From positions 1-36,367 of the IMG/VR virus record IMGVR_UViG_3300037132_000109: a stretch of DNA of 36,367 nt. The stretch is one strand, 5' to 3'. The notes under the pieces are model-generated. The model was not told the DNA's origin. It searched no databases and saw nothing but the letters and a program-made list of their open reading frames with translations. Origin of the DNA: a virus. Shown here piece after piece: positions 1-34,748 of this stretch. The position numbers were made by a program, and so were the translations under genes. The stretch's first letter is position 1, and each line of letters opens with the position of its first letter.

Positions 1-266
1 ATCCATTCATACTTAAACATCTTCACATTACTCATCACCAACGCACTGGTAAAAGGTTGTGAGGCAGTTAAAACTATCGCACCATTGTCTTTTATTATTC
101 TTTTATATTGTTCCCACAATGGCTCAAAGGGAATTATGGTGTCCCAATGGCACGAAGTCGTTCCATAAGGTAAATCACATAAAATCATATCAATACTGTT
201 ATCAGGTATCTCTTTCATTACTTCTAAACAGTCGCCTTGTATGATTTGATTTTCTTTCATATCCAT
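1..266 (-). CDS. DNA methyltransferase (N6-adenine or N4-cytosine type), N-terminal part, cut by window edge
   Basis: The reading frame starts at an ATG at 266 (a second in-frame ATG is at 260) and runs off the left edge, giving 88 codons. The N-terminus reads [20 protein letters not shown], followed by DLPYGT and then [11 protein letters not shown]. This is the usual opening of N6_N4_Mtase proteins, with the catalytic (D/N)PP(Y/W)-type motif near the N-terminus, here as DLPY, and the next strand of the SAM-binding fold after it. Such enzymes methylate adenine N6 or cytosine N4 in DNA; in phages they usually protect against restriction. It is the last gene visible in the leftward module. Target base and specificity cannot be told from this part. 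Confidence 0.85.
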
Positions 267-332
267 TCTTTATTCATTATTCATTGTATTACGATTGTAC
301 AATGGTGCAGATTTTACACTGCGGTTAATAAA

Positions 333-536
333 TTATTTAATAATCTTATCGGCAAATTCTAGTAATTGTTCAATCTCTTTTTGTGATTCATCTATCAATT
401 TTTGTTCTTTTCTTATATCGTCATATATTTCTTGTGGCGACATACTACAAGTATTATAAGTTCTTTTTAAGAAACGACTATCCTTTCCTGATAGAGGGAT
501 ATTTGCGTATTTTCTAAAAAATAAATGTAATTCCAT
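333..536 (-). CDS. small hypothetical protein, 67 aa
   Basis: I do not recognise this protein. It is short and charged; the C-terminal half, from about residue 34, is rich in Glu, Lys, Gln and Ile and looks like a single long helix or coiled coil (EEIYDDIRKEQKLIDESQKE-like pattern). The N-terminal half has a basic patch with Arg and Lys. It lies between the methyltransferase and a very short possible gene that overlaps its start by 23 nt, in the tightly packed leftward module. Start ATG at 536 is the only good one. Confidence 0.5.
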   Translation of the reverse strand: MELHLFFRKYANIPLSGKDSRFLKRTYNTCSMSPQEIYDDIRKEQKLIDESQKEIEQLLEFADKIIK

Positions 537-609
537 TTTGTTTATATTTAAGTGGGTTTTCTTTTATATCTTTCCAATCTCTTGGACAAACTGAATCATC
601 TTCATTCAT
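514..609 (-). CDS. possible very small protein, 31 aa
   Basis: An ATG at 609 opens a 31-codon frame ending at 514. The peptide starts MNEDDSVCPRDWKDIKENPL and ends in a hydrophobic ITFIF. It fills the gap between the repeat protein (whose frameshifted form ends at 641) and the 67 aa gene, and it overlaps the latter by 23 nt. The tight packing and the non-random composition (CPRDWKDI) favour a real small gene, but 31 codons is too short to be sure. Confidence 0.3.
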   Translation of the reverse strand: MNEDDSVCPRDWKDIKENPLKYKQNGITFIF

Positions 610-640
610 CTTTTTTATTATTATACGCACAGTTGATAAA

Positions 641-724
641 TTATTCTGTAATTTTTGCTTTGTAAGTCTTATTTTCGATAGTTACTGATACTTCTTGCCC
701 AACTAAACTTTCAACTTCTTTTTT
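641..724 (-). other. possible -1 ribosomal frameshift site (A AAA AAG at 718-724) and 25-codon extension
   Basis: On the minus strand the zero frame of the hexapeptide-repeat gene reads AGA AAA AAG AAG, so the heptamer A AAA AAG is in the phase used by dnaX-type -1 frameshifting. After the slip, the frame continues for 25 codons to a TAA at 641-643. The added peptide includes SLVGQEVSVTIENKTYKAKI. This aligns by eye with the C-terminus of the neighbouring gene (SLSGKEVTVTLDGKSYTAII), which argues that the extension is coding. A one-base assembly error in the A-run would look the same. Confidence 0.5.
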
Positions 725-1344
725 CTTTTCTTCTCAATAGGAGTAATTTCATAATCTCCAAGTACATATTGATTTTTCCAATAAGTAGTTCCTGTTTTAT
801 CTGTAATATCTTTTATTTTTCCTGAATCATCTCCACCGATAAATCTACCTTTAGTATATGAAAATTTACCACAGACCCAAGCATTACCAGAGACATAAGC
901 ATCACCAGAGACTTGAGCATCACCATAGACCTGAGCATTACCACAGACCTGAGCATCACCAGAGACATAAGCATCACCACAGACCCAAGCATCACCATAG
1001 ACCTGAGCATCACCACAGACCCAAGCATTACCAGAGACATAAGCATCACCAGAGACTTGAGCATCACCAGAGACCTGAGCATTACCACAGACCTGAGCAT
1101 TACCACAGACCCAAGCATCACCAGAGACATAAGCATCACCAGAGACTTGAGCATCACCAGAGACCTGAGCATCACCATAGACCCAAGCATTACCAGAGAC
1201 CTGAGACAAATTTTCTTCTTTTTCTATATAACCTCCAAATTCTCCTTTTACAATACTACCAAAACTCTTTTCAGCTTTTATTTGAAACAATGTTTTTCCG
1301 AACAATTCTATTTTTTTATTTGTTAATACGTATTTCTTTTGCAT
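703..1344 (-). CDS. hexapeptide-repeat (V-x-G-[DN]-A-x) beta-helix-like phage protein, 213 aa
   Basis: After a 48-residue N-terminal domain (KSFGS..KGEFGGYIEKEENLS) there are 18 uninterrupted copies of a six-residue unit V[SCY]G[DN]A[QYW] (residues 49-156), then a C-terminal part with GRFIGGDDSGKI and YWKNQYVLGDYEI. The repeats predict a regular parallel beta-helix. The same head-repeat-tail plan is common in phage and bacterial proteins of unknown function. Many units carry Cys (VCGNAQ, WVCG), which would stack along one face. The zero frame ends in a run of Lys at KKRKKKLKV, directly after a canonical A AAA AAG slip site; a -1 shift would add 25 residues homologous to the end of the neighbouring gene. 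The function is unknown. Confidence 0.75.
   Translation of the reverse strand: MQKKYVLTNKKIELFGKTLFQIKAEKSFGSIVKGEFGGYIEKEENLSQVSGNAWVYGDAQVSGDAQVSGDAYVSGDAWVCGNAQVCGNAQVSGDAQVSGDAYVSGNAWVCGDAQVYGDAWVCGDAYVSGDAQVCGNAQVYGDAQVSGDAYVSGNAWVCGKFSYTKGRFIGGDDSGKIKDITDKTGTTYWKNQYVLGDYEITPIEKKRKKKLKV
877..1200 (-). repeat. tandem 18-bp repeat, 18 units
   Basis: An 18-bp unit with local variants (on the plus strand GCATCACCAGAGACCTGA and relatives) is repeated 18 times without spacers and encodes the six-residue beta-helix unit. Because the period is a multiple of three and the unit lacks stops in several frames, long open frames appear on both strands here; they are by-products. Near-identity between units suggests recent expansion or ongoing length variation. 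Confidence 0.9.
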
Positions 1345-1349
1345 AGTGT

Positions 1350-1712
1350 TTATTTAATTATTGCCGTATAAGACTTTCCATCAAGTGTTACAGTTACTTC
1401 TTTACCTGAAAGTGATAATTCTTCATTTACTTTTATTCCTGTTATTTCAAAAAATATTTCTGGTGTAAAATTTGGAAGTGTCATAAAGAATTTCTTTTGT
1501 TCTTCAGTTGCTCTTGCCCAATATTCTTTCCAAGCATCTTTGTAATCTAAAGTCTTTAACATTCCATCCATATTTTTAGTATCAGTATTCTGTTCACTTT
1601 CTGGCAAGTCTTTATAATCTATCCATTGGCAAGTGTGTAAGTCTGGATATACGATTATATTTTTATTAAATTCTGAATAAGTTATATCACTGTCTTTGTT
1701 GAAAAATCTCAT
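1350..1712 (-). CDS. phage protein with C-terminal domain shared with the repeat gene; likely frame-disrupted N-terminus
   Basis: The intact frame gives 120 aa: WIDYKDLP, then YKDAWKEYWARATEEQKKFF, LPNFTPEIFFEITGI, and a C-terminal SLSGKEVTVTLDGKSYTAII that resembles the end of the adjacent hexapeptide-repeat protein. I recognise the AWKEYW...FF..LPNF...F.EITGI stretch from phage proteins that begin with NxGxxN repeats. In frame with this gene and upstream of its first ATG, the DNA encodes NTGIDNSGNYNSGWFN and then NEPKMRFFN, exactly such a repeat start. The matching ATG at 1794 is separated from it by a run of nine A and is one base out of frame. So the true gene is probably 1350-1794 with a frame problem at the A-run. 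The function is unknown. Confidence 0.65.
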   Translation of the reverse strand: MRFFNKDSDITYSEFNKNIIVYPDLHTCQWIDYKDLPESEQNTDTKNMDGMLKTLDYKDAWKEYWARATEEQKKFFMTLPNFTPEIFFEITGIKVNEELSLSGKEVTVTLDGKSYTAIIK

Positions 1713-1794
1713 CTTTGGCTCATTAGTATTAAACCAGCCACTGTTGTAGTTGCCACTGTTGTCTATTCCTGTGTTATTTTTTTTTGTCTGTCAT
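1713..1794 (-). other. probable N-terminal part of the 1350-1712 gene, out of frame at an A9 run
   Basis: The minus strand reads ATG ACA GAC AAA AAA AAA TAA from 1794. Removing one A from the nine would connect this start to NTGIDNSGNYNSGWFN, which is in frame with the downstream gene and contains NxGxxN units. With the start at 1794 the gap to the upstream gene (ending at 1827) shrinks from 114 to 32 nt, in line with the packing elsewhere in this module. Transcriptional slippage, a real mutation or a homopolymer assembly error could each explain it. Confidence 0.5.
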
Positions 1795-1826
1795 ATTTTT
1801 ATTTATCTACTTATAAAGTTATTTAA

Positions 1827-2741
1827 CTAATTTGCCACTATTGGATTTGGTATTGTATTTGTTCTTGTATTTATTCCATTAACTAAACAATTTTGCATAT
1901 AAGACAAATACTGGCTTGGAGTCTGACCTACTATATCGTGTTCTGTATTTATCACATAATCATAAACAATTTGACTTAATGCTGGTGTAGTTTCAATTTT
2001 GATCCCATAATTTACTTTAAAGGAATCATTTGGATTTGCCTGAGAATCTAAAAATGCACCAGATGTTGCCATTGAAGATAGAGGAACTGCTGAAATTACA
2101 ATCTGGGTTATTTCTGAATAATCTTGAATGGTAGTATTACAATTGCCTGACAAAACAAGGCTTATAAGTTGTTGAACTTCTGGTGGTGGATTCCCATAAT
2201 AGGTTAGTGTTGGAGTATTTGTAGCCATAAAAGATGGCTCATCTATGGAACCTACAAACCACCACGCTTGTGAAATATCTGGATTGTTTGGTTCTTGTGG
2301 TGTTGGTGCTGAAGCTATAACTGGCTGTTGAACTACAGTTGTTTGTTCAGTAATGGCTGTTCCAGTTACACTGGCTTGCTCTTGTGCTATTTGTCCTGCT
2401 GTAAGATTGGAACCAGAAGTATTTGCTCCTGCCGATACAACAACTTCTGTTGTGGTTGGTTGAACAAAAATAGCCACAGGAGTTGCTACAACTGTAGTTA
2501 TTACAGGAGTGCTTATAGCACTCGTTGTAGTGGCTTTATTTTGGTTTACAACAGGCTTTGTAACTGTAACCACAGATTTGACTGTTGGCTTTGTTTTTAC
2601 TACAACTGGCACAATTTTAGTGGTAGTTGCAACTGATATACTTATTGTTGATGTAGCTTGGGTAGTAGGAACTTTTACAACTTCTTTATGAATTGTAAAT
2701 ATGCCTGATATAAAAACCCATATAATTAAAAATATTTTCAT
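1827..2741 (-). CDS. exported Thr/Val-rich protein of unknown function, 304 aa
   Basis: The N-terminus MKIFLIIWVFISGIFTIHKE is a signal peptide or membrane anchor. It is followed by a long low-complexity stretch (residues about 24-150) of Thr, Val, Ser, Ala and Pro, including TTQATSTISISVATTT, likely an extended stalk. From about residue 155 a more ordered domain follows (QAWWFVGSIDEPSF..., PPPEVQQLISLVLSGNCNTT, YLSYMQNCLVNG); its two Cys could form a disulfide outside the cytoplasm. There is no lipobox. The style resembles secreted proteins of Parcubacteria-like organisms rather than virion proteins. It sits 4 nt upstream of nothing structural, inside the leftward accessory module. Possible roles are cell-envelope modification or superinfection exclusion; both are guesses. 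Confidence 0.6.
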   Translation of the reverse strand: MKIFLIIWVFISGIFTIHKEVVKVPTTQATSTISISVATTTKIVPVVVKTKPTVKSVVTVTKPVVNQNKATTTSAISTPVITTVVATPVAIFVQPTTTEVVVSAGANTSGSNLTAGQIAQEQASVTGTAITEQTTVVQQPVIASAPTPQEPNNPDISQAWWFVGSIDEPSFMATNTPTLTYYGNPPPEVQQLISLVLSGNCNTTIQDYSEITQIVISAVPLSSMATSGAFLDSQANPNDSFKVNYGIKIETTPALSQIVYDYVINTEHDIVGQTPSQYLSYMQNCLVNGINTRTNTIPNPIVAN

Positions 2742-2745
2742 ATTA

Positions 2746-2961
2746 TTATGGCATTAAACTTATAATAAAGTTCCACAGACTAAATGGAGCTTTTGTAATT
2801 CTTTCTTTAAACTCTTTTGGATTTCCACAAGAACTAAAATCATTTTCAATTATATCTAATATTTGAGCTTTTCTCTTTATTGCTTCCTCATTCCTATTCT
2901 TTATGCTCTGCTTGAATATTGGATGACTTATTATTTGTCTCTTCGTCATTTGCTTGAGCAA
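2746..2961 (-). CDS. small hypothetical protein, 71 aa
   Basis: I do not recognise this protein. It is basic at the N-terminus (MTKRQIISHPIFKQSIKNRN) with a helical middle and a hydrophobic C-terminal end (FSLWNFIISLMP). It begins inside the 3' end of the upstream gene; the overlap is 68 nt from this start, or 53 nt if the second ATG at 2946 is used. It ends 4 nt before the exported protein gene, which suggests translational coupling. Confidence 0.45.
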   Translation of the reverse strand: MLKQMTKRQIISHPIFKQSIKNRNEEAIKRKAQILDIIENDFSSCGNPKEFKERITKAPFSLWNFIISLMP

Positions 2962-3196
2962 TACTATTCTCCATTAATATTTCTGGATCTAGCTTGCTAT
3001 AATTTATAACTGATTCTTCAAATACTGACTTGTATAAATTTTTTAAGTCTTCTTTCTCTTGTCCTTCAAATCCATTTATTGATGTATAAAGTTCTGCACA
3101 ATATTCAGACTGATGTTCTATTGTATCTGATTTTTTATTGACAGCTATCTTAGCATGCTTTTTTGCATCCTCAATTAACATTTCTTCATTCCACAT
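2894..3196 (-). CDS. small acidic hypothetical protein, 100 aa
   Basis: I do not recognise this protein. It is predicted to be helical and acidic (MWNEEMLIEDAKKHAKIAVN at the start, then EGQEKEDLKNLYKSVFEESV), with a polar, probably disordered tail rich in Asn, Glu and Ser. Its start overlaps the end of the zinc-finger gene by 11 nt and its end overlaps the next small gene, so the three are likely translated from one message. Confidence 0.5.
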   Translation of the reverse strand: MWNEEMLIEDAKKHAKIAVNKKSDTIEHQSEYCAELYTSINGFEGQEKEDLKNLYKSVFEESVINYSKLDPEILMENSIAQANDEETNNKSSNIQAEHKE

Positions 3197-3431
3197 TTTG
3201 TTGTTTGGTTAAAGTTTCTAATTTTTTCAAGGATCTTATTCTGGCTGGTATAACTTTCTTCAAATTACATTTGTCACAACACAGACCATCTCTTCTACAA
3301 GATACAGAATTGTTTCCTTCTCCTTCAAACTCTTCTTTGCATATACAACAATCATGTCTTTCAACACGAGGTCTGGCATTTAATTTATCCATTGCATCTA
3401 CATCTGGATTTCCTTGTAATGGTTCTTTCAT
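3186..3431 (-). CDS. small phage zinc-finger protein, 81 aa
   Basis: The core reads CCICKEEFEGEGNNSVSC, then DGLCCDKCNLKKVIPARI. The pattern CxxC...GxGNN...DGxCCxxCNxxVIPAR is a widespread small phage family that appears to bind one zinc through two CxxC knuckles; its role is unknown. The first 25 residues have no clear motif. ATG at 3431 gives the full domain. It is part of the leftward run of small genes and overlaps the next gene by 11 nt. Confidence 0.7.
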   Translation of the reverse strand: MKEPLQGNPDVDAMDKLNARPRVERHDCCICKEEFEGEGNNSVSCRRDGLCCDKCNLKKVIPARIRSLKKLETLTKQQNVE

Positions 3432-3476
3432 AAGTTTATTTTATTGTTGATAAAATTATTACTGCTATTGTTAATA

Positions 3477-3788
3477 TTACCCAAGACCAAAACAAAGTAT
3501 AAATTCCTTTCTATTTTTATCTCTTTGTTCCCTCCATTTTGTTTTACTAGGATATCCAAGAAACCATGACTCATAATTTTTTACCAAAGCTAATTCATCT
3601 TCCCAAACACCTCCTGTAATCTCTCCTTCTTCTTCCAAATTATACCAATATTTTTCATCTTCATCATCTGTCTTACAAGTTTTGCCAAATGATTTTATTT
3701 TGCAAATTTGTCCATCAAGTCTGTATGAAGCAGAAGAAGTTTCACCTTTGACAGAAACCTTATCACCTACTTTGAATTTATTTTTCAT
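3477..3788 (-). CDS. small SH3/KOW-like hypothetical protein, 103 aa
   Basis: The N-terminus MKNKFKVGDKVSVKG, followed by a Gly/Asp-rich loop (RLDGQICKIKSF) and a strand ending VWEDELALV, has the pattern of a small SH3-like or KOW-like beta barrel often seen in phage accessory proteins. No catalytic motif is visible. The last 30 residues are basic. It overlaps the end of the upstream 146 aa gene by 11 nt. The fold call is by eye only. Confidence 0.5.
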   Translation of the reverse strand: MKNKFKVGDKVSVKGETSSASYRLDGQICKIKSFGKTCKTDDEDEKYWYNLEEEGEITGGVWEDELALVKNYESWFLGYPSKTKWREQRDKNRKEFILCFGLG

Positions 3789-4218
3789 AATCTTGTTCTT
3801 TTAAAACTACATAATCAACTTGACCATCCAATACACTCCTTGTATAAGTTTCAATTGGCATTCTTTTGAAATTGTATTCTTTCTTGAAATTGAAATTGTT
3901 TACAATCTTCTTTATTGACATCTGGTATATAACAGATCCTGTTGATTGAACAACTGACTTATTTAACTTTCTTGCTCCTGACATTCCTGGTAATGAGTCT
4001 TCACTAAATTTTCTCCATCCAAGAGCTTTCTTTTCTGTATCTGCAAAAAATAACAATATAGTTCCATCTAAACCTTTTCTTTGAGCATACTCTTTTGAAA
4101 AGGTTATAGTGCCATGTTTGGTATTTAATGATACATACTCCTGCAATTTTTCTTTTTGTTTTTGAATTGACTCCAGCTGTATTACTGGAATGAAATTAAA
4201 TTGTGCTTCTCTTGACAT
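3778..4218 (-). CDS. hypothetical phage protein, 146 aa
   Basis: I do not recognise a named family. The N-terminus is charged and helical. The region HGTITFSKEYAQRKGLDGTI followed by LLFFADTEKKALGWRKF resembles the small beta-domain seen in several phage proteins that align with a transcription-factor-like swapped-hairpin (AbrB-like) pattern, but I would not assign it. It is 1 nt away from the 63 aa gene upstream and overlaps the next by 11 nt. Confidence 0.5.
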   Translation of the reverse strand: MSREAQFNFIPVIQLESIQKQKEKLQEYVSLNTKHGTITFSKEYAQRKGLDGTILLFFADTEKKALGWRKFSEDSLPGMSGARKLNKSVVQSTGSVIYQMSIKKIVNNFNFKKEYNFKRMPIETYTRSVLDGQVDYVVLKEQDYEK

Positions 4219-4219
4219 A

Positions 4220-4411
4220 CTATTCTAAGTTATATTTAACTGATAATTGTTGAATTTTCATTCTATAAGCCATCTTACCAAGAACTTTTTCAAACTTTAT
4301 TTTTGTCTTCTCATTCATCATATAAGAATAGAAGTCATCAAAATTTACAGAAGTTCTAGCAATCTCTTCCATTGATTTGAATAACTCATCTCTATCTATT
4401 TGTCTTGACAT
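4220..4411 (-). CDS. small hypothetical protein, 63 aa
   Basis: An all-helical charged protein (MSRQIDRDELFKSMEEIART at the start) with no motif I recognise. It is packed 4 nt after the 55 aa gene upstream and 1 nt before the next gene. Both this gene and the next start with Met-Ser-Arg, but the rest differs. Confidence 0.5.
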   Translation of the reverse strand: MSRQIDRDELFKSMEEIARTSVNFDDFYSYMMNEKTKIKFEKVLGKMAYRMKIQQLSVKYNLE

Positions 4412-4415
4412 AAAT

Positions 4416-4583
4416 TTATATAATGTGAATTATTTTAATAATTTTTATTTTTTTAACATTTATATTGAGTTTTATTGCAAAGTATTCTTTTGCTCTTACA
4501 AGTGCCTCAATTATATTTTCTGCTTCTAACAAAGTGCTATGTTTCTTATCACTTGTATGAGCTATTATTCTGAATGTTTTCAT
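4416..4583 (-). CDS. small hypothetical protein, 55 aa
   Basis: The ATG at 4583 opens 55 codons ending in a TAA at 4416. The sequence MKTFRIIAHTSDKKHSTLLE, then AENIIEALVRAKEYFAIKLN, has the beta-strand plus helix pattern of a small phage protein family in which a short strand is followed by EAENxxEAxxKA. The C-terminus is rich in Ile and Lys. It sits 7 nt after the shifted-frame stop (4591) of the preceding gene and 4 nt before the next start, which supports it. Confidence 0.6.
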   Translation of the reverse strand: MKTFRIIAHTSDKKHSTLLEAENIIEALVRAKEYFAIKLNINVKKIKIIKIIHII

Positions 4584-4636
4584 AATTTTGTTATCTTACT
4601 TTAATTATTTGTTCAGCTTGATAACCTTTCTTTACT

Positions 4637-4849
4637 TCATAGCGATATCCAGAAAATGGAACTAACTTTCTTGTTAAATATTTCTTTTGCTTTGTTCCAT
4701 TGACTTGGTGTTAATCTTCCTATGTAGGAGTCTGGCATTTGTTCTCCATTAGTTTTTAAAAAGTTACAATACCAAGCTTCTCTTCCATCTACATACTGAC
4801 CTTTCTTTATTTGAATGCCAAATTGATAGTACTCTTGTAATTTTCTCAT
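4637..4849 (-). CDS. small phage protein, probably frame-disrupted (full form 4591-4849)
   Basis: The zero frame gives 70 aa, MRKLQEYYQFGIQIKKGQY..., with GRLTPSQWNKAKEIFNKK and an abrupt end in SSIFWISL. A +1 shift around 4680-4690 instead gives KAKE followed by YLTRKLVPFSGYRYEVKKGY and ends at a TAA at 4591, 7 nt before the next gene. The shifted ending reads as a natural beta-rich C-terminus and fits the gene spacing, so the intact protein is probably about 85 aa. An extra A in the AAAGAAATATTT stretch, or recoding, would account for it. The function is unknown. It is the first gene of the leftward operon. Confidence 0.55.
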   Translation of the reverse strand: MRKLQEYYQFGIQIKKGQYVDGREAWYCNFLKTNGEQMPDSYIGRLTPSQWNKAKEIFNKKVSSIFWISL

Positions 4850-4868
4850 AATTTTTATTTTTTACTCC

Positions 4869-4907
4869 TATCGCCTGCTATCCCAATATAAGGAATAACA
4901 GGAGATA
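4869..4907 (-). promoter_or_regulatory. hairpin in the 5' leader of the leftward operon
   Basis: On the minus strand TATC, CCTG, TAT and CC pair in order with GG, ATA, CAGG and GATA; a U-C mismatch, a G-U pair and one bulge interrupt the stem, and the loop is 8 nt. It ends 20 nt before the ATG at 4849. An AGGAG follows the stem but is too far from the start for normal initiation. A regulatory role is inferred only. Confidence 0.35.
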
Positions 4908-5102
4908 AGATATATTGGTTACTAAATTCAATCCATATTTAGTTGTCAAAGAACTTGACTTTTGGAAAGATTAGAAGTAAAGTAATTAGGAATTTGATTT
5001 GATATTTATTCCTTTTTTGCCCTCACAATCTTTCTTAGTAATAAGTATCCCTCTTATTATAATAAAAGGCAAGCAATTTTACGGAAAGTTTTATCCAGAA
5101 AG

Positions 5103-5130
5103 TTGATAACTACTTTTTACGGCTTAAAAT
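5103..5130 (+). promoter_or_regulatory. putative sigma70-type promoter for the RusA-like gene
   Basis: TTGATA (5103-5108), a 16-nt spacer and TAAAAT (5125-5130) match the -35 and -10 consensus at five of six positions each. Predicted start is near 5137, about 90 nt before the ATG at 5228. A GTTGATAAC site overlaps the -35 box, which could be an operator. Confidence 0.5.
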
Positions 5131-5227
5131 AAGCATAGAAAAATGTCAGTTTTACATTTCATTACATCCAGATAGGTAAAAACAGGTGTTATTTGAGGTT
5201 TAAAACAACTCTAAAATCAATACTAAA

Positions 5228-5557
5228 ATGAACACTATAAAAGCAAAACCTTTGAGCGTGAACACAGCCTGGAAGGGCAAAAGATTCAAGACATCTGACT
5301 ACAAAGACTATGAGCAGTTGATGTTCTACTTATTGCCAAAGAAACTGTATATTCCTAAAGGCAAGATATTGCTCAATATAACATGGGGTTTTTCAAGTAA
5401 AGCATCTGATTTGGACAACTGCTTGAAGCCTTTTATTGACATACTACAAAAGTGTTATGGCTTTAATGATAAGATGATATACAAAATTGTAGTAGAAAAG
5501 GTCATAGTAGAAAAGGAGCAAGAATTTATTAAATTTGAATTAAAAGATTATGAGTAG
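5228..5557 (+). CDS. RusA-like Holliday junction resolvase
   Basis: This 109 aa protein shows the RusA family signature: SDLDNCLKPFIDIL (residues 60-73) followed by GFNDKMI (78-84). Asp61, Asp63, Lys67, Asp71 and Asp81 fall at the positions of the acidic metal-binding residues and Lys known in RusA. RusA proteins are dimeric endonucleases that cut four-way DNA junctions; phages use them to resolve recombination or replication intermediates before packaging. Length fits the family (about 100-140 aa). It has its own predicted promoter at 5103-5130 and overlaps the next gene by 8 nt. Confidence 0.88.
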   Translation: MNTIKAKPLSVNTAWKGKRFKTSDYKDYEQLMFYLLPKKLYIPKGKILLNITWGFSSKASDLDNCLKPFIDILQKCYGFNDKMIYKIVVEKVIVEKEQEFIKFELKDYE

Positions 5558-5774
5558 ACCGATATTTTATTACAATTGTTATGGTTGTGGAGGACAGGTT
5601 GAAAGATCTGTTCAAATTAAATATCCAACTCTTTGTATTGTGTGTAGAATGGAGATGAATAGAAAGAAAGCAAATGAAAAAAATCATTTAGACATAAAAG
5701 AAACTAGAAGAAAAAGTAAGATACAATACTTAAAAAATAGAGAAAAAAGGTTGGTAAATAAGGATAAAAAGTAA
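5550..5774 (+). CDS. small zinc-ribbon protein, 74 aa
   Basis: The N-terminus carries two Cys pairs, CYGCGG (residues 10-15) and CIVC (29-32), a likely single zinc site. The C-terminal half is a strongly basic helix (NRKKANEKNHLDIKETRRKS and onward), as expected for nucleic acid binding. The start overlaps the end of the RusA-like gene, so the two are probably co-translated. The precise role is unknown. Confidence 0.6.
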   Translation: MSRPIFYYNCYGCGGQVERSVQIKYPTLCIVCRMEMNRKKANEKNHLDIKETRRKSKIQYLKNREKRLVNKDKK

Positions 5775-5801
5775 TCAACGCATTATCAACTGTTTATCAA
5801 C
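5774..5801 (-). repeat. three direct repeats of GTTGAT(AA) at 11-bp spacing
   Basis: On the minus strand GTTGATAA is found at 5801-5794 and 5790-5783, and GTTGAT at 5779-5774, each 11 bp apart, about one DNA helical turn. The same core recurs on the plus strand at 5102, 6192 and 6204. Regular phasing suggests a protein-binding array such as an operator or replication iterons. Confidence 0.55.
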
Positions 5802-5912
5802 TTTATTTCATGTTGCTTTTTATTTATTTTGGAAGATAATTATCATCACAAGATTGTACAAAAAGAAAATAAAATTAAAAATAGTTTTACTTTCTTTTTG
5901 TTAATATTGCTG

Positions 5913-6045
5913 TTGGGATAGTGGGCTAACTTGTAGCTCCCAATGGATGCCAAACTTAATTACAAGCTCTTTAGGTCTGATGCGACGGGAACAACTAAAG
6001 AATCACTTATAGGAACATCACCAGCCTATAACATTCACAAGAATG
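5913..6045 (+). ncRNA. possible structured RNA, 5' hairpin cluster
   Basis: Four consecutive hairpins can be drawn. TTGGGA/TCCCAA (5913-5918 with 5938-5943) encloses GCTA/TAGC. CTTTAG pairs with CTAAAG (5969-5974 with 5995-6000). TTATAGG pairs with CCTATAA (6007-6013 with 6025-6031). CATTC pairs with GAATG around an ACAA loop (6032-6045), directly abutting the previous stem. Perfect stems at this density in noncoding DNA suggest an RNA. No clear promoter is seen, and the strand is not certain. Confidence 0.35.
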
Positions 6046-6191
6046 ACAAATGTCTAACTCTTGATAGTGGAGATTGAGAAATGCAGAGATAAATCTGACA
6101 AACATTTCAAAATAAAAATGCTGTTTTTACGGCTTTTAAATCTTTCTGCTCCAAGAACAACTAAGAAAGACAAATACCTATTATACAAACA

Positions 6192-6212
6192 GTTGATAAC
6201 TTAGTTGATAAC
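6192..6212 (+). promoter_or_regulatory. two GTTGATAAC sites abutting the structured-RNA promoter
   Basis: GTTGATAAC occurs at 6192-6200 and 6204-6212, 12 bp apart, ending exactly where the TTGACA -35 box starts. The same 9-mer overlaps the -35 region upstream of the RusA-like gene at 5102-5110. Position next to two promoters suggests an operator or activator site. Confidence 0.5.
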
Positions 6213-6241
6213 TTGACAATAAAACTTGACTTTATTACAAT
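6213..6241 (+). promoter_or_regulatory. near-consensus sigma70 promoter
   Basis: TTGACA (6213-6218) is a perfect -35 box, the spacer is exactly 17 nt, and TACAAT (6236-6241) matches the -10 consensus at five of six positions. The predicted start lies near 6247-6249, just before the base-paired segment. No protein-coding start follows for almost 400 nt, so the immediate product should be the structured RNA and tRNA, with possible read-through into the terminase genes. Confidence 0.7.
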
Positions 6242-6246
6242 ATAGA

Positions 6247-6531
6247 GGGATAATTAGCATAGTTATTTGAAATATTGCAGTTTACTGACTCTTTGAGAGA
6301 CAAAATGTGCACAATCCATTTAGGTCTATATGATGCCTTAAAAGCATTGTAGAATCTACTCTTTGAGTTAAGGTTAAATCCAAACACTCTTCCTAATTTG
6401 ATTAGCCCCGAATTAGAAGGAGTCAGTAAGCTACAAATTTGTACGTTATCAGCAACAATTCTGGTAATTAATTGTTGTGTTGGTTCATAACAGCGTCTAT
6501 CCAAAATGCAACATTTGGATGGTGCTGATAA
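6247..6531 (+). ncRNA. putative structured noncoding RNA of about 285 nt upstream of a tRNA
   Basis: Seen directly: a 17-position helix pairs 6275-6291 with 6420-6436, with one mismatch and one G-U. Inside it, a hairpin pairs 6390-6398 with 6411-6419, stacked on the long helix. Another hairpin pairs 6326-6335 with 6344-6352, and its loop CTTAA can pair with TTAAG at 6368-6372 (a possible pseudoknot). At the 3' end a three-way junction is formed by 6446-6454/6523-6531 (9 bp, perfect), 6455-6460/6470-6475 and 6497-6505/6514-6522. A strong promoter lies at 6213-6241 and a tRNA starts 12 nt downstream. It does not look like tmRNA, RNase P RNA or 6S RNA. Phage RNAs such as GOLLD and ROOL are also found beside tRNAs, but I see no sequence match to claim membership. 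Confidence 0.65.
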
Positions 6532-6542
6532 AATATAAATAT

Positions 6543-6614
6543 TGCAGGTGGGAGGTATGGTATTTCGTAAGACTCATAATCTTTATAAAGTCAGTTCAAT
6601 TCTGACACCTGCTA
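6543..6614 (+). tRNA. tRNA with anticodon CAU (Met-type or Ile-type)
   Basis: The cloverleaf is clear in its 3' half. The T arm GTCAG-TTCAATT-CTGAC (6590-6606) has the conserved TTCAA. The variable loop has 5 nt. The anticodon loop is CTCATAA (6573-6579) with U33 and anticodon CAU. The D arm is weak (GAGG/TTTC with two G-U pairs) but its loop has GG. The acceptor stem pairs GCAGGT with ACCTGC; the outermost 1-72 position would be a U-U mismatch. The anticodon stem lacks the three G-C pairs of initiator tRNA. CCA is not encoded. A CAU anticodon can serve initiator Met, elongator Met or lysidine-modified Ile; I cannot choose. Confidence 0.75.
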
Positions 6615-6640
6615 CAACAAAATAAACAATACAATGAATT

Positions 6641-7225
6641 ATGAAAGAAGTCAACAATGAACCGAATACAGAGAAAAGAATAGATGGTATCATGGTTGCT
6701 GATGCAATAAAGAGAAAACTTAAAAAAGGAAAGGACATTGATAACAAAATAAAAATTAAAAATAATATTGTATATAAAAATCCAATTATATATCAATTGA
6801 AAACTGAAGCAGGAAGACCTACAAAAATGACAGAAGCTGTTGTGGCTAAATTATTATGGGCATTTGCAAATGACTATAACAATGAAGAAGCTTGTATTTA
6901 TTCAGGAATTAGTGTATGGACACTTGGAAGATACAAAGAAGAGAATGAAGATTTCGCAAAGCAAATTGAGCTTATAAGAAATAATCCAAATATGATTGCA
7001 AAAACAATCTTAGTGGACTCCTTATTAAGAGGAAATGTGGAGGATGCTAAATGGTGGTTGACTAAAAAGAACAAAGCTGAATTTGGAGAACCAGAACAAT
7101 TGCCAATGGGAGGAACTATGTTTCAACAAACAGAGAGAACTGTTAAGACAGAAGTATCAGAGACAACTATAAAATCAAAGACACTCACCTTATTAAAGCA
7201 AATGAAACCAGATGTACAAATTTGA
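6641..7225 (+). CDS. terS: terminase small subunit
   Basis: This 194 aa protein contains AGRPTKMTEAVVAKLLWAFA (from about residue 56) followed by EEACIYSGISVWTLGRYKEE, the helix-turn-helix pattern used by small terminase subunits to recognise packaging sites. A helical middle and a flexible C-terminus fit oligomerisation and large-subunit binding. The gene directly precedes and overlaps the large terminase gene by 14 nt. The first 50 residues are basic and low in structure; the start at 6641 is the first ATG after the tRNA, though a later start cannot be excluded. Confidence 0.8.
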   Translation: MKEVNNEPNTEKRIDGIMVADAIKRKLKKGKDIDNKIKIKNNIVYKNPIIYQLKTEAGRPTKMTEAVVAKLLWAFANDYNNEEACIYSGISVWTLGRYKEENEDFAKQIELIRNNPNMIAKTILVDSLLRGNVEDAKWWLTKKNKAEFGEPEQLPMGGTMFQQTERTVKTEVSETTIKSKTLTLLKQMKPDVQI

Positions 7226-8954
7226 AGATGTTTACAACTTGTGTCGTGATATGTTCAAAGTCTTCATGGAGGAGATTATGGACTTCAACAATGCACCATT
7301 TCATGATAAGCTAGATGATATCATTTCAAATGTAAAGCTATATTTAAAGATAGCAATAGCATATGCAAGAGGACATGGTAAGACCACTCACTTGTCTGTT
7401 GGTTATCCTTTGTGGAAGATTGCAGGAAATCATAACATAAGAATACTTTTAATATCCAGCACAGCTGCCATCTCTCAACAATCATTAGGAACTATAATGG
7501 CAAACATAGAGAAGAATGAGAAGTATCAAATATATGCAAACTTTATAGATCCTAAGAGACAAGGTGTAATACCTCAATTGAAAGGTAATATCAAAGCAAA
7601 ACAAATGTGGTCTGGTAATCAGATAACAATAGCTAGAGATGATTATAAATTAAGAGATCCTACTATTTGTGCCATTGGAGTATTTGGTTCTATACTTTCA
7701 AAGAGAGCTGATGAAATTATACTTGATGATATAGTCAACCAAGAGAACTCACAGACAGAGGAACAAAGATTAAAAATAATTGATTGGATAAGGACAACTG
7801 TATTGCCTGTATTAGTTCCTGGTGGAAGAATTATATGTTTAGGTAACACATGGCACCAAGATGATTTGATGTCACACTTGTTAAAAGATCCTCAATTTGA
7901 TTACAAAGATAAACAGCCAGCAATCATACACGAGAGCAATCATCCAGAACTATGGGAAGAATGGAAAGGCATTGTTCTAGATGAAACAATTGAGATTGAA
8001 GCTAGAAAGAATAAAGCAGAAGCATATTATCAACTCAACAAGGAAGCTATGGATGATGGAGTTGAAGTGCTTTGGCCAGAAAGATTTACATACAAGGAAC
8101 TTTACTTGATTAGATTATCTGACTCATATTCATTTGCTAGGATGTATCAGTGCGATCCTACTAACAGACCAAATCAACAATTCAAAGATGAATGGTTAGA
8201 GAAAGCTATGATAAAGGGTAAGAGCATGAAACTGCAAGATACCACACCAGATGGAATTGTTTGGGATATTACTACTGATGGTGTTGACTTGGCAATTGGA
8301 GAAGAAAGCAGAAATGATGACACATCAATATTCACTCTTGCTAAAGTAAAGTATTCAAACATTGAGGGTATTAATCCAGGAGACTATGTACCAAGACAAA
8401 TAAATGTAGGCAAGTTATCTCCAAAGGAGACAAGAGACAATATCAAGTTGAGTTATGAATTGCACCAGCCAAAAGGAATAAGAGTTGAATCAGTTGGTTA
8501 TCAGATGGCACTGATAAGAGACTTAAAAGAAGAAAAATCAGGAATGCCAATTACAGCATATCATACAGGAGGAGAAAAGAATGACAGCTCAATTGGAGTA
8601 AACAGCTTGGCTATTATAGCAGAACAAGGAAAGTTAGTATTGCCATTTGACCAATCAGATCCTAGAACGATAAAGATTATAAGTAGATTGATAAATGAAA
8701 TGAGAGCTTATCCTGATGGACACACTGGTGATATTCTTATGTCATTCTGGTTTGCTTTTAGTGAAATGAGAGATTTACAGGGTGGTCGTGTTATTGTTCC
8801 TGGAGCATTCATTGGCAAGAAGCCAGTGGAGAGTGTAAAGGAACTTGAAGATCCTGTATTCAGAAGAGAAGAAGAGAAGAAAGCTGATGTGGCAACTATT
8901 CTTGCACAGAAGGAAGAAAGACAAACATTTAATAGAATGATGCGTAGACATTAA
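7212..8954 (+). CDS. terL: terminase large subunit (packaging ATPase and nuclease)
   Basis: At 580 aa it has the two-domain terminase layout. The ATPase Walker A variant is ARGHGKTT (residues 52-59) and Walker B is DEIILDD (167-173), with the coupling motif near GNTWHQ (211-216). The RNase H-like nuclease begins at DGVDLAIGEESRNDDTS (356-372), with further conserved Asp in HTGDILMSFW around residue 507. It translocates DNA into the prohead and cuts the concatemer. It overlaps the small subunit gene by 14 nt. Length and motifs are typical, and no inteins or breaks are visible. Confidence 0.95.
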   Translation: MYKFEDVYNLCRDMFKVFMEEIMDFNNAPFHDKLDDIISNVKLYLKIAIAYARGHGKTTHLSVGYPLWKIAGNHNIRILLISSTAAISQQSLGTIMANIEKNEKYQIYANFIDPKRQGVIPQLKGNIKAKQMWSGNQITIARDDYKLRDPTICAIGVFGSILSKRADEIILDDIVNQENSQTEEQRLKIIDWIRTTVLPVLVPGGRIICLGNTWHQDDLMSHLLKDPQFDYKDKQPAIIHESNHPELWEEWKGIVLDETIEIEARKNKAEAYYQLNKEAMDDGVEVLWPERFTYKELYLIRLSDSYSFARMYQCDPTNRPNQQFKDEWLEKAMIKGKSMKLQDTTPDGIVWDITTDGVDLAIGEESRNDDTSIFTLAKVKYSNIEGINPGDYVPRQINVGKLSPKETRDNIKLSYELHQPKGIRVESVGYQMALIRDLKEEKSGMPITAYHTGGEKNDSSIGVNSLAIIAEQGKLVLPFDQSDPRTIKIISRLINEMRAYPDGHTGDILMSFWFAFSEMRDLQGGRVIVPGAFIGKKPVESVKELEDPVFRREEEKKADVATILAQKEERQTFNRMMRRH

Positions 8955-12909: not shown

Positions 12910-13643
12910 TGAAAAAAGAAATACTAGCAAAAGACAATCCCTTGTCACCAGCAACTAAAAAAGCTATTGACACTATCCTTGGAGGTAAAGTTGATTTGCC
13001 AAAGACTGGAGATACAAAGAAGCCTATGGTTGCCAAAGATGATGCACAGTATTTGAAGAACAAGAAACTTGGAACCATGCCAAATGAAAAGATTACTATC
13101 AAAACTAATTCAGGAGCCAGCAAAGAAATAATGCTTGTTAGAGAAGGAACAACAGACAGAGCTCTTGGAGAATTAATGCTTGATGCAAATATGCCAAGAG
13201 AAAGAAAAGACCAGATTGTTGCACAATACTTGTTTGAAAGAGGAAAGGAATCCAGCTCATTTTTAGCTGAATTAATGATATACAAGGGTGCTCATTCAAA
13301 AGAAACTAAGGTATTCAAATCTCAAACAAGATTTGATTTAGAATTATTTATGGATATGATGGTTACTTTGTTAAATGATATGTCAGGAAAGATTGCAAGT
13401 GATATGCATGACAAAACAACTTTGGTGGATGCTTTCACCCATTTGTCTGTTATGATGAAAGAAGGAGCAAATATTATTACCAATAGAATGAATAGAATAA
13501 AAGAAGCACGCATGGCTGAGAAAGGTTATGGCATCTATGTTGATAATGCAGGAAGAACTTACAGTGTGCTTGATAATGATTTAGAAGATATTATTAAAAA
13601 GGATCGTGAAGCCACAAAGGAAGCTTTGGAGGATAATAAATAA
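12909..13643 (+). CDS. hypothetical phage protein, 244 aa
   Basis: I do not recognise this protein. The first 90 residues look flexible and basic (Pro, Thr, Lys). Then there is a helical core with GTTDRALGELMLDANMPRER and VFKSQTRFDLELFMDMMVTL, and a Met-rich amphipathic segment. The C-terminus is charged (DIIKKDREATKEALEDNK). It lies between the glycan block and the Acb2-like gene, with a TAATG junction upstream. It may be a virion-assembly protein, judging only from position and helix content. Confidence 0.5.
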   Translation: MKKEILAKDNPLSPATKKAIDTILGGKVDLPKTGDTKKPMVAKDDAQYLKNKKLGTMPNEKITIKTNSGASKEIMLVREGTTDRALGELMLDANMPRERKDQIVAQYLFERGKESSSFLAELMIYKGAHSKETKVFKSQTRFDLELFMDMMVTLLNDMSGKIASDMHDKTTLVDAFTHLSVMMKEGANIITNRMNRIKEARMAEKGYGIYVDNAGRTYSVLDNDLEDIIKKDREATKEALEDNK

Positions 13644-13647
13644 AAAT

Positions 13648-13839
13648 ATGAGTTTTCAACATATAAAACCAACAGATAAACAATTAGAGGTTATGCAAGA
13701 CTTTAGAGACATTTTTGAAAATCTATCTGGCATAATCAAAAACGATGTAAAAGATTCAAGAGGTAGAGCTTTGTGTTTAACAAAATTAGAAGAAGCAGCA
13801 TTTTGGTTAAACAAAGCAATAACTAAGAATGATAAATAA
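13648..13839 (+). CDS. Acb2-like (Acb2/Tad1 hairpin family) anti-defence sponge, 63 aa
   Basis: The protein reads MSFQHIKPTDKQLEVMQDFR, then DIFENLSGIIKN and DSRGRALCLTKLEEAAFWLN, KAITKND. The pattern H.P...Q...M...R..F..L...(D/N)SR..AL.LTKLEEA.FW.NKAI..N is the one I know for the small helical-hairpin family that includes anti-CBASS protein 2 (Acb2). Acb2 binds cyclic di- and trinucleotides and stops them from activating CBASS effectors; related members bind Thoeris signals. Length fits. The frame is open from 13606, but ATG at 13648 after AATAAAAAT gives the family N-terminus. Ligand specificity cannot be read from sequence. Confidence 0.72.
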   Translation: MSFQHIKPTDKQLEVMQDFRDIFENLSGIIKNDVKDSRGRALCLTKLEEAAFWLNKAITKNDK

Positions 13840-13840
13840 T

Positions 13841-13993
13841 ATGAAGTACGAATACGAAGTAGCAACTCCAGAAGTAGGTAAAGAAAGACAAACTCTTAAT
13901 GAGTTAGGAAAGATGGGATATTCAGTTGTGGGTGTTGTATATAATCAATACTCTGGTAGAACAACTTTCTATTTACAAAAAGAAATCAAATAA
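13841..13993 (+). CDS. DUF4177-like small protein, 50 aa
   Basis: ATG at 13841, one base after the Acb2-like stop, opens 50 codons ending in TAA at 13993. The sequence MKYEYEVATPEVGKERQTLN, ELGKMGYSVVGVVYN and a C-terminal TTFYLQKE follow the DUF4177 pattern (YEYKV...LNELGxxGWELVGV...YLFKR). Such proteins are short beta-helix-beta folds with no known activity. Its tight linkage to the Acb2-like gene may be functional or only reflect late-operon packing. Confidence 0.6.
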   Translation: MKYEYEVATPEVGKERQTLNELGKMGYSVVGVVYNQYSGRTTFYLQKEIK

Positions 13994-17949: not shown

Positions 17950-18240
17950 ATGTACAATAACGGTGGTAATAATTGTGGAAGATGCATTATACAAGAAACT
18001 GGAGTTCCTCAGAACTTGAGTGGATCTATTCCTTGTGTCAGATTAGATTTGAGAGCAGATGTAAATAATACAGGAGATATAATTGTTGGAGGCAATTCAG
18101 TATCACTTAGTCCTGTAATTGGAATACCCATACATGCAGATGAAATATATAACTTAGATGTAATTGCAGATGTCAAGAATGTTGTTGTGGTCGGAACACA
18201 AGGAGATGTGATAGTTTATTCTTGGTGGAAAGGATCTTAA
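17950..18240 (+). CDS. small beta-rich virion-type protein, 96 aa
   Basis: It starts with a Cys/Gly/Asn-rich NNGGNNCGRCIIQETG and continues with strands VRLDLRADVNNTG, IIVGGNSVSL, GIPIHADEIYNLDVIADVKN and a Trp-Trp end. I know the GNSVS...GxxIxADExxxLDxxxDLxxVYVxG pattern from small phage proteins encoded near the portal or capsid genes, possibly decoration proteins. It lies 4 nt after the portal gene. Confidence 0.6.
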   Translation: MYNNGGNNCGRCIIQETGVPQNLSGSIPCVRLDLRADVNNTGDIIVGGNSVSLSPVIGIPIHADEIYNLDVIADVKNVVVVGTQGDVIVYSWWKGS

Positions 18241-18244
18241 AATT

Positions 18245-18505
18245 ATGGGTAGCAATAGAATACAAATTAAATCAAAGGGTGGAGTTGGTAGTGGCTTTCA
18301 ACCATTGTCAATTACTTCTGGAGTGGTTGATGGAACTAATCAAGATTTTACTTTTCAAGATAATAAAAAACCAACTTATTTAATTATAGATAATGGTGCC
18401 TACGAAGAAAATGATAGATGGACTTGGAATGGATTGACATTCACTGCAACCACAACACCAGCACCACAAAGTACTTTAACAGCCATGATTTATGTAACAG
18501 CTTAA
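18245..18505 (+). CDS. small beta-rich structural-type protein, 86 aa
   Basis: A compact beta-sandwich-like sequence: PLSITSGVVDGTNQDFTFQD, then KPTYLIIDNGAYEENDRWTW, NGLTFTAT and a hydrophobic end. The GxxxxFTF...P..VxxDG...W..G.T.T pattern is common in short phage head- or tail-decoration domains. It is packed 4 nt after the previous gene and 3 nt before the secreted fibre-like gene. Confidence 0.55.
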   Translation: MGSNRIQIKSKGGVGSGFQPLSITSGVVDGTNQDFTFQDNKKPTYLIIDNGAYEENDRWTWNGLTFTATTTPAPQSTLTAMIYVTA

Positions 18506-18508
18506 TAT

Positions 18509-21500
18509 ATGAAAAAAATAATTACATCATTAATATTGGCAACACTCTTATTCCTTCCAAACTTTGGAATTGCTAGCAATCCACAAACAACAGTTCCTAT
18601 TGCTCCAGGAAGTGGATATTGTTTGATGTCTGGCAGTAATGGACTTTATATAGCTTCAAGTACAGCTTGTAGTTCTGGAACTTTGATGTGGGGAAATATA
18701 ACAGGAACATTATCTAATCAAACAGATTTATGGAACCAATTATTATCCAAACTAAGTACAACAACTGCTGCTAATACTTACTTGTCTTTAATAGATGCAT
18801 CATCAACATATCTTTCAATTGCAAATGCAACTTCCAGTTACATGACATTTAGTTACGCTTCATCAACTTACGCTTCGACAACTTGGGTGAGTGCAACATT
18901 CATTCCACTTTCAGCTTCAACTTCACTTTCATATATTCCTCTAGCATCTTCTTCACTTTACTATCTCGCTTCAAATCCAGCAGGATATATAAGTTCAACA
19001 ACTTCAAGTTTATTGAACTATCCAACTTATGACTATGCAAGTTCTACTTATTTAACTATTGCAACTGCAACTAGTGAATATATCCCATATATTTTAAATG
19101 GTTATTATATTGGAATTTTTGATACTTCCAACCAAAACTATTTTTCAAACGGAGCTGGAAACAAAACAATGACAGGACAAATGAATTTTGGAATAGGTTT
19201 GTATTCTTTGAACAACAATACGACAGGTTCAGAAAATACAGCTTACGGTATGGAAACTCTTAACGATAACACTACTGGTTCGCAAAATGTCTCTATTGGT
19301 GCGTATAATATGAATGATAGTCGTAGTGCAAGCCAAAATACAGCAATCGGATATTCAAATCTAGACGCAATACAAACTGGAAGTAACAATACCTCTGTCG
19401 GATATAATGCTGAAAATTTGGTTATAACTGGTTCACACAATACTACTGTTGGTTCAAATTCTTTGGAATCTGGAAATGGATATTATAATACATCGGTTGG
19501 TGATAGTTCTTTATATCATAGTACGGGAGCATACAATATAGCTTTAGGTTCTTATGCTGGATATTATGCGACAAACACATCAAATGAATTATTCATAAAT
19601 AATAATCAAACAGGAAGTTATCAAAATGATAAGACACATTCAATTATTTATGGAGTAATGGATGTCAGTTTAGCTGACCAAATATTGTATTTGAATGCTT
19701 CCACTACGATAGCAACCACGACAACTTTAGCTTTAATACTTCCAAATATTAAGAATTCAATTTTAGGAACTGATGCAAATGGAAATGTTATTGCGACATC
19801 AAGTTCTGTAAACTTGTCAAATTATATGACTTTTGCTTATGCGACTTCAACTTACTTGCCTTTAGCCAGTTCATCATTATTTCTTTTAAATAGTGCATCT
19901 ACTTCACTTGCATATGTTCCGATAGCATCCTCATCTCTATATCTTTTGAATTCTGCTTCAACATCTTTGGCATACATTCCTATTGCTTCTTCATCTTTGT
20001 ATTATTTGAATTCAAACCCAGCCGGCTACATCACTGCCACTTCAACTGCATTTATTCCGTTCGCTAGTTCATCTCTTTATTATTTAAATAGCAATCCGTC
20101 AAACTACATCACAGCAACTTCCACCGCTTTCATTCCTTATGCTTCAAGTTCTCTTTATCTTCTCAATTCTGCAAGCACGAGTTTGGCTTATATTCCAATA
20201 GCATCGTCTTCATTATTTGCAACTTCGGGAACACTTTTGAGCTATATGACTTACAGTTATGCTTCTTCCACCTATGCAAGCACGACTTATGTCAATAATA
20301 CATTTTTGACATTATCTGCTTCAACATCTCTTGCTTATATTCCATCGGCCAGCTCGTCTTTGTATCTTTTAGTTTCTGCCAGCACTTCATTGCCATTCAT
20401 TCCGTCTGCTTCTTCAACTTTGTATGTTCCTTATACAGGTGCAACTACAAACGTGAATCTCAACAATCAATCTCTTTCAAATGTCAATACTCTTGGAGTT
20501 AATACAGGTGGAAGTTATCAATACAACGGTTATGTAATAGCAGAAGCAAGCACAACACTCAATAATTATTTCTTTGGCAGAGCAGGAAATCTGACGATGA
20601 CAGGTTCCAACAACACTGCAAATGGTTATTATGCTCTCGTCTTCAACACCACAGGTGGTTACAACACCGCAAATGGCGATTTTGCTCTCTACTCCAACAC
20701 CGCAGGTTCTTACAACACTGCAAATGGTTATTATGCTCTCGTCTCCAACACCGCAGGTTCTTACAACACTGCAAATGGTTATTATGCTCTCTACTCCAAC
20801 ACCGCAGGTTCTTACAACACTGCAAATGGTTATCAAGCTCTCTTATCCAACACCACAGGTTCTTACAACACTGCAAATGGTATGAATGCTTTATTTAACT
20901 TAAGTGGTAATTCATCAGTAGCTTTGGGATATGATGCAGGTCAATATGCAACTTCTACAAATAACGAACTCTTTATAAATGATTACGATACAGGAAGTTA
21001 TGTAGGTGACAAAACAAAATCTCTTATCTACGGTCAATTCAATACTGCTACATCTTCTCAACAGCTTACAGTCAATGGAACATTAACTGATTATGGAGAA
21101 ACAGTTCAGGGAAATGAACACCTTACTGGTGGACTTTATGATTCTACAAATGCTACAGGCACAACAAGACAAATACTTACATCAACAGGGACATCTACCA
21201 TTTGGACAAAACAGAGAATGACTATTCAAATTTTCACATCTGGCTCAGGAACATATACAACTCCTGCTGGAGTTGCATATATTGAAGTAAAAATGGTTGG
21301 AGGTGGAGCAGGAGGTGGAAGTGCGAATGGTGTTGGAACAAGTGGAGCAACTTCAACTTTTGGCACAAGTTTTTTAACAGCAGGTGCAGGTTGGGCAGCA
21401 GTTTCAAATAGAGCCAGTGCGACTAGTTCTGCAACTATTGGAGCAGGTGCAATAGGTGTTGCACTTGGAGGTGGAGCTGGACAAGGAGGAAGTTATACTG

Positions 21501-34734: not shown

Positions 34735-34748
34735 TAAAAAAATAAAAT

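Follow-up and report, generated by a model that had tools for sequence, protein, structure and literature searches.

A stretch of about 295 nt between a promoter-like site and a tRNA (6247-6542, Table 1) is tentatively read here, at a little less than an even chance, as an accessory, lineage-specific phage noncoding RNA, which would be transcribed on the plus strand from 6248, freed by 5' processing of the tRNA, and would act in trans. An earlier annotation made from the letters of the DNA (hereafter, the sequence-only reading) had proposed a structured RNA with its own promoter at this place. That proposal largely holds and gives the best reading in view of the thermodynamics, the preference for the plus strand, and the exact fit between the predicted start and the tRNA, the orphan structured RNA being credible although unproven.

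Genomic setting

The window (the whole 36,367-nt stretch of DNA analysed here) has a G+C content of 33%, with minus-strand genes at 703-4849 and plus-strand genes from 5228 onward. Along the plus strand, a RusA-type resolvase gene (5228) and a small ORF (5550) are followed by a gap of 770 nt and then by the tRNA, the terminase small (TerS) and large (TerL) subunits, the portal and the head genes, which bears out the claim that a tRNA and terminase genes lie directly downstream of the RNA. The best match of TerL among 50,697 phage records is only about 27% identical, and thus the phage is far from those described. Two scans of bacterial genomes for the host gave no match. Also, a visible Shine-Dalgarno is rare at the 43 gene starts across the window, A/T-rich stretches preceding most of them as judged by eye, and the host lineage may make little use of this signal. 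Elsewhere, the minus-strand gene at 703-1344 is a beta-solenoid repeat gene of the YdcK type with a bactofilin match, its product being 213 versus 231 aa long in two phages.

Table 1. Positions in the window of the predicted RNA, its parts and the neighboring features.
Feature	Positions	Strand	Detail
Virus record IMGVR_UViG_3300037132_000109 (IMG/VR)	1-36,367		window = full 36,367 nt
11-bp palindrome AGTTGATAACT, first copy, putative operator	6191-6201	+	exact copy
11-bp palindrome AGTTGATAACT, second copy	6203-6213	+	12 nt on; overlaps -35 hexamer by one base
Promoter-like TTGACA-17-TACAAT	6213-6241	+	predicted start ~6248; 11 of 12 consensus positions
Whole predicted noncoding RNA (from the predicted start up to the 5' end of the tRNA)	6247-6542	+	MFE -77.8, z -4.4 (6247-6540)
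5' hairpin (predicted)	6248-6268	+	9 bp, 3 of them G.U; mean pair probability 0.87
Multibranched domain (predicted)	6275-6436	+	closed by 19-pair helix 6275-6294/6417-6436; z -4.30, 0/100 shuffles
Multibranched domain, inner arms	6298-6327, 6329-6351, 6365-6389, 6393-6416	+	predicted fold
3' domain (predicted)	6437-6540	+	helices 6437-6443/6534-6540 and 6446-6454/6523-6531; z -3.59, 0/100 shuffles
3' domain, arms	6472-6493 (uncertain), 6497-6522	+	predicted fold
tRNA-Met (CAU), initiator-like	6543-6615	+	1:72 mismatch, A11:U24; called by ARAGORN (as tRNA-Met) and by Rfam (as tRNA)
Terminase small subunit (TerS)	6641-7225	+	phrog_4102, E 7.1e-14
Terminase large subunit (TerL)	7212-8954	+	phrog_38, E 2.8e-65

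Promoter-like site and adjoining palindromes

The promoter that had been assigned to the RNA is present and ranks first among the 16 promoter-like sites of 4700-6800, but its hexamers alone are at chance level window-wide, with 3 of equal quality in the window against a shuffle mean of 3.07 and 39 of 60 shuffles reaching 3. The site becomes more credible because AGTTGATAACT palindromes adjoin its -35 box. Three exact copies of AGTTGATAACT occur in the window (5101, 6191, and 6203), each of them in a noncoding gap that precedes plus-strand genes, the copy at 5101-5111 preceding the RusA gene. For GTTGATAAC, 3 occurrences were found against a mean of 0.32 expected, a count that none of 100 shuffles reaches, whereas with one mismatch allowed in AGTTGATAACT the enrichment is less striking (4 found versus 1.59 expected; 5 of 100 shuffles reach 4). 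The two copies of AGTTGATAACT at the -35 box support a regulated promoter as a candidate assignment, and the copies are likely the sites of a phage regulator. A search for the Bacteroidetes-type promoter TAnnTTTG gave no signal, with 62 occurrences versus 55 expected.

Predicted fold and its significance

The minimum-energy fold of 6247-6540 contains 92 pairs in 12 helices. The first helix opens at 6248, 7 nt downstream of the -10 box, and the last closes at 6540, leaving 2 nt to the tRNA. The long helix described in the sequence-only reading (6275-6291/6420-6436) pairs at 16 of its 17 positions, with one C.A mismatch and one G.U, and 2 helices as good occur in the window, against 0, 0, 0, 0, 1, 3, 0, 0, 0, and 0 in ten whole-window shuffles (mean 0.4). 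The stacked hairpin (6393-6400/6409-6416) indeed sits directly on this helix, with a mean pair probability of 0.99. As for the three-way junction proposed at 6446-6531, its outer helix (6446-6454/6523-6531) consists of nine perfect pairs with a mean probability of 0.92, but its third arm is uncertain (6472-6479/6486-6493, at 0.51).

The folds of 6247-6540 and 6247-6615 agree, and thus the tRNA leaves the RNA fold undisturbed. When the transcript is extended into terS (to 6725 or beyond), the 9-bp outer helix is predicted to fall to a probability of at most 0.01. According to this model, the helix would most likely give way to a pairing with the first part of terS, provided that the RNA has not been cut or folded beforehand. 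A switch between the outer helix and a pairing of 6448-6459 with terS 6692-6703 is not claimed, given that about 0.6 such pairings are expected by chance by a rough hand estimate. Moreover, a pairwise comparison of 4850-5227, 5774-6246, and 6247-6542 for duplicate RNA domains gave similarity at chance level.

The stability of the fold is unusual but not decisive, and its genome-wide signal is modest. Across 247 windows of 294 nt with 20 shuffles each, 6247-6540 has the lowest z and ranks first. In a denser scan of 1204 windows of the same length, based on a regression on dinucleotides, it ranks second with a z of -3.69, behind an AT-rich neighbor within the same region (5611-5904), and the most extreme shuffled window attains -3.96. 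Also, the region does not stand out in a scan with 140-nt windows. Since one shuffled window is more extreme and the boundaries 6247-6540 were chosen by eye in the sequence-only reading, thermodynamics alone does not decide the matter. A stretch devoid of function, either an AT-rich spacer whose good folding is accidental or the remains of decayed genes or elements, would be consistent with that shuffled window, with coding windows in a sister phage that score similarly (18229-18522 of G001, described below), and with the absence of homologs in all searches. However, the two domains are independently significant, shuffles of 6247-6540 never reach its fold (0 of 200 for the energy of -77.8, and 0 of 100), and chance folding would not foresee an exact fit between the predicted start and the tRNA, which makes this explanation quite improbable.

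Strand preference and repeats of the gap

The plus strand of 6247-6540, the strand of the tRNA and terS, has the better fold of the two (z -4.63 versus -2.66 for the minus strand); the reverse-complement energy of -69.3 includes non-standard pairs and was left out. This comparison bears on the possibility that the gap acts as DNA, that is, as a packaging (cos/pac) or replication region between the RusA and zinc-finger-like genes and terS, where inverted repeats would serve proteins and any RNA folding would be incidental. A gap next to terS is a usual place for a packaging or replication site, and the 770-nt gap does adjoin terS. Besides, TTATCAACT and its inverted copies are concentrated in noncoding gaps, 3.9% of the window accounting for 6 of the 8 copies, and 5780-6212 folds equally on both strands (z -4.36 and -4.41). 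Nonetheless, these repeats fall outside 6247-6540, the strand preference just given tells against it, and 12 of the 92 predicted pairs are G.U, which are not stable in DNA; a DNA-level site is therefore regarded as very unlikely for the stretch.

Upstream of the promoter-like site, a 430-nt stretch is bounded by inverted repeats at 5783-5802 and 6191-6211, each arm holding two TTATCAACT copies. An AT-rich hairpin is found inside it at 5858-5901, and its interior (5880-6180) folds at chance level (z -0.95).

Coding potential and known RNA families

Seventeen stop-to-stop frames of at least 30 codons overlap 5775-6542, of which 15 have a negative coding score and 2 score 0.06, the 32 genes used for training ranging from 0.03 to 0.57. 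An 89-aa minus-strand ORF has no match in Pfam or PHROG. These frame scores and database negatives rule out protein coding on either strand of 6247-6540, in agreement with the earlier statement that no ATG-started protein fits there; all frames of the gap look noncoding, and the minus-strand coding alternative is likewise unsupported. An Rfam search, proposed as a check in the sequence-only reading, returned the tRNA as the sole match, both for the whole window at the gathering threshold and for 5750-6660 up to an E value of 10, so all families of Rfam 15 except tRNA are ruled out.

The tRNA as a possible 3' boundary

In the sister phages, a copy of the tRNA lies directly before terS, where ARAGORN misses it (L088 2875-2946). 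In an ungapped alignment of the tRNA of the window with that of G001, 19 of 20 stem pairs are kept in each and 8 of the pair changes are compensatory, and because of this the tRNA at 6543-6615 is taken as real on comparative grounds. Initiator tRNAs are marked by a CAU anticodon, a mismatch at position 1:72, A11:U24, and three G:C pairs in the anticodon stem. Position 1:72 is U.U in the window and A.A in the sister, A11:U24 is present in both, and the three G:C pairs are absent, the stem having 1 G:C in the window and 2 in the sister; the tRNA is probably initiator-like. Its 5' end would provide, via RNase P, a natural 3' end for any RNA transcribed in front of it. A tRNA beside TerL is not general, being present in 1 of the 60 distant TerL loci examined (of 80).

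Relatives and search for homologs

Two sister phages, G001 (41,660 nt) and G002 (26,026 nt), were found by means of a joined set of conserved TerL fragments, whereas single-sequence scans with TerL and with TerS found nothing and a search with the HNH gene led only to the same two phages. The TerL of the sister phage is 61% identical to that of the window. A comparison of 1-3350 and 7212-29380 of the window with G001 and G002 reveals extreme mosaicism, some parts being 97-100% identical and others 46-61% at the protein level, and genes of 99-100% identity adjoin genes of 46-61%.

Both sisters keep the tRNA, the TerS slot, and TerL, but the RNA is absent at that place, where G001 has only a short unstructured gap before the tRNA (13620-13932 minus, z +1.57). 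This absence speaks against the RNA being essential for packaging or being a leader that the terminase genes require. No DNA match to 6247-6542 was found in G001, G002, or G003 (the record of locus L091), and the single-sequence covariance models R1 and R2 gave no match on pieces of G001 and G002 or on locus L091. Over 13 sources, both models found below an E value of 1 only the window itself, their minus-strand self matches coming from the arms, which are palindromic. Another set of 97 loci, made up of 79 with a distant TerL and 18 of the 24 with RusA, gave 0 matches to R1 and 1 to R2, at E 0.21 (L078), which is taken as chance.

Other searches agree with this picture. A distant DNA search of phages returned only 24-26-nt matches at E ~1, taken as chance, and a distant search of plasmids with the RNA region, as well as blastn of that region against the retrieved loci of relatives, gave no homolog. 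Scanning all IMG/VR viral contigs for the motif GTTATCAGCA-N47-77-TGCTGATAA yielded 44 contigs, none of them window-like between the arms; nearly all of these matches lie inside open frames and look like chance. TerL relatives comprise 5 loci reached via window fragments and 5 via an alignment of the window with L088. One of the relatives, L095 (TerL 50% identical), lacks a tRNA call, and its terminase genes come after another gene, with no structured or RNA-sized gap seen in front of them. The 24 loci of RusA relatives belong to unrelated phages and hold a tRNA in 0 of 24, with no terminase match and no RNA match, and Rfam found no RNA family on the sister loci. Then, the predicted RNA is known from one genome only, searches by DNA, covariance model, and motif alike having given no homolog.

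A different structured leader is present in G001 (22970-23255, equal to L099 9171-9456), 286 nt long with a z of -5.6. It lies behind a promoter-like TGTACA-16-TATAAT and directly before the first gene of a plus-strand operon. The opposite strand of the same gap is also structured (22443-22840 minus, z -3.88). In addition, G001 holds a 256-nt noncoding gap (34521-34776, L100) whose G+C content is 41%, the phage itself being AT-rich, and which is strongly structured on either strand and has no Rfam match.

This first leader is relevant to the main rival explanation, in which the late operon would have 6247-6542 as its structured leader, acting in cis, and the nascent RNA would act on its own RNA polymerase or on downstream expression. 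By analogy with the putRNA of HK022, which suppresses pausing and termination, the long plus-strand run from 6641 would be read through its action. The unit is placed as such a leader should be, immediately after a promoter-like site and where a long series of plus-strand genes begins, and the G001 operon likewise begins with a promoter-like site and a structured stretch before its first gene, its opposite strand being structured too. On the other hand, the G001 leader differs in layout from the RNA of the window and shares with it neither sequence nor modelled structure, the tRNA-terS-terL genes of G001 have no structured stretch in front, and the fold in the window stops at a tRNA and not at a gene. 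A cis-acting leader thus seems somewhat unlikely.

Proposed origin of the RNA

In the trans-acting reading, the promoter at 6213-6241 would drive transcription from about 6248, controlled by a protein bound to the two adjacent AGTTGATAACT palindromes on its upstream side. One transcript would continue through the initiator-like tRNA, terS, and terL, which is the simplest arrangement because the predicted start and the tRNA bound the unit and no terminator-like site was found between 6248 and 6640. RNase P cleavage at the 5' end of the tRNA (6542/6543) would free a folded RNA made of the 5' hairpin, the multibranched domain, and the 3' junction domain, and this free RNA would act in trans during infection, as may be supposed for ROOL and GOLLD. 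Since the sister phages do without the RNA at that place, it would probably be accessory and not part of packaging.

The new RNA class suggested in the sequence-only reading is possible, no Rfam family besides tRNA being matched, but the RNA is known from one genome only. A more specific version, a new class of phage RNA whose ends would be set by a regulated promoter and by processing of an initiator-like tRNA, its release being coupled to the start tRNA and to the onset of the terminase genes, is considered unlikely. If true, a compact 295-nt RNA fused to an initiator-like tRNA and absent from the sisters at the same site would constitute a small system in which to test the reason for the association of structured RNAs with tRNAs in phages, and whether such RNAs are released by tRNA processing. 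If instead the RNA acts in cis, it would suggest that a late phage operon is controlled through RNA.

Comparison with known systems

Within openly accessible papers, nothing on point was found about a structured RNA beside terminase genes. The packaging RNA of phi29, to which the sequence-only reading had pointed, contains a three-way junction, and phi29 packages with an ATPase and this pRNA rather than with a TerS/TerL pair. The likeness consists of a phage-encoded RNA with a three-way junction near a packaging gene. However, the window has both TerS (phrog_4102) and TerL (phrog_38), the pRNA family of Rfam is unmatched, and the RNA is missing at this place from two sister phages whose TerL is homologous, so the comparison is not supported.

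The put RNA of HK022 is far shorter than the unit described here. It is a structured RNA lying in the promoter-proximal part of a phage transcript, and it acts on early genes (PMC9378689). The resemblance is that of a promoter-proximal structured RNA on a long phage operon, the promoter being assigned here by consensus only, and the difference is that put acts on early genes whereas a late operon is proposed here.

ROOL is a homo-oligomeric RNA cage, its lengths exceed the ~295 nt of the unit, and to our knowledge neither ROOL nor GOLLD has a known function. Their covariance models did not match the window, either over its whole length at the gathering threshold or over 5750-6660 up to an E value of 10, and the whole gap (5775-6542, 768 nt) still has no GOLLD match. 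Both are described as noncoding phage or prophage RNAs often near tRNA islands; many GOLLD members exceed 800 nt, some GOLLD linkers contain tRNAs, and a Met-tRNA adjoins GOLLD env-38 (PMC12286853). GOLLD differs from the unit in being often >800 nt with a conserved 3' region, as against ~295 nt upstream of a tRNA, and ROOL differs in its tRNA islands, as against a single tRNA. Then, although the family models do not match, the part of the earlier comparison that stands is the setting: like ROOL in that description, the predicted RNA would be a phage RNA near a tRNA, and like GOLLD, a noncoding phage RNA beside a tRNA, which in this case is the tRNA-Met at 6543-6615.
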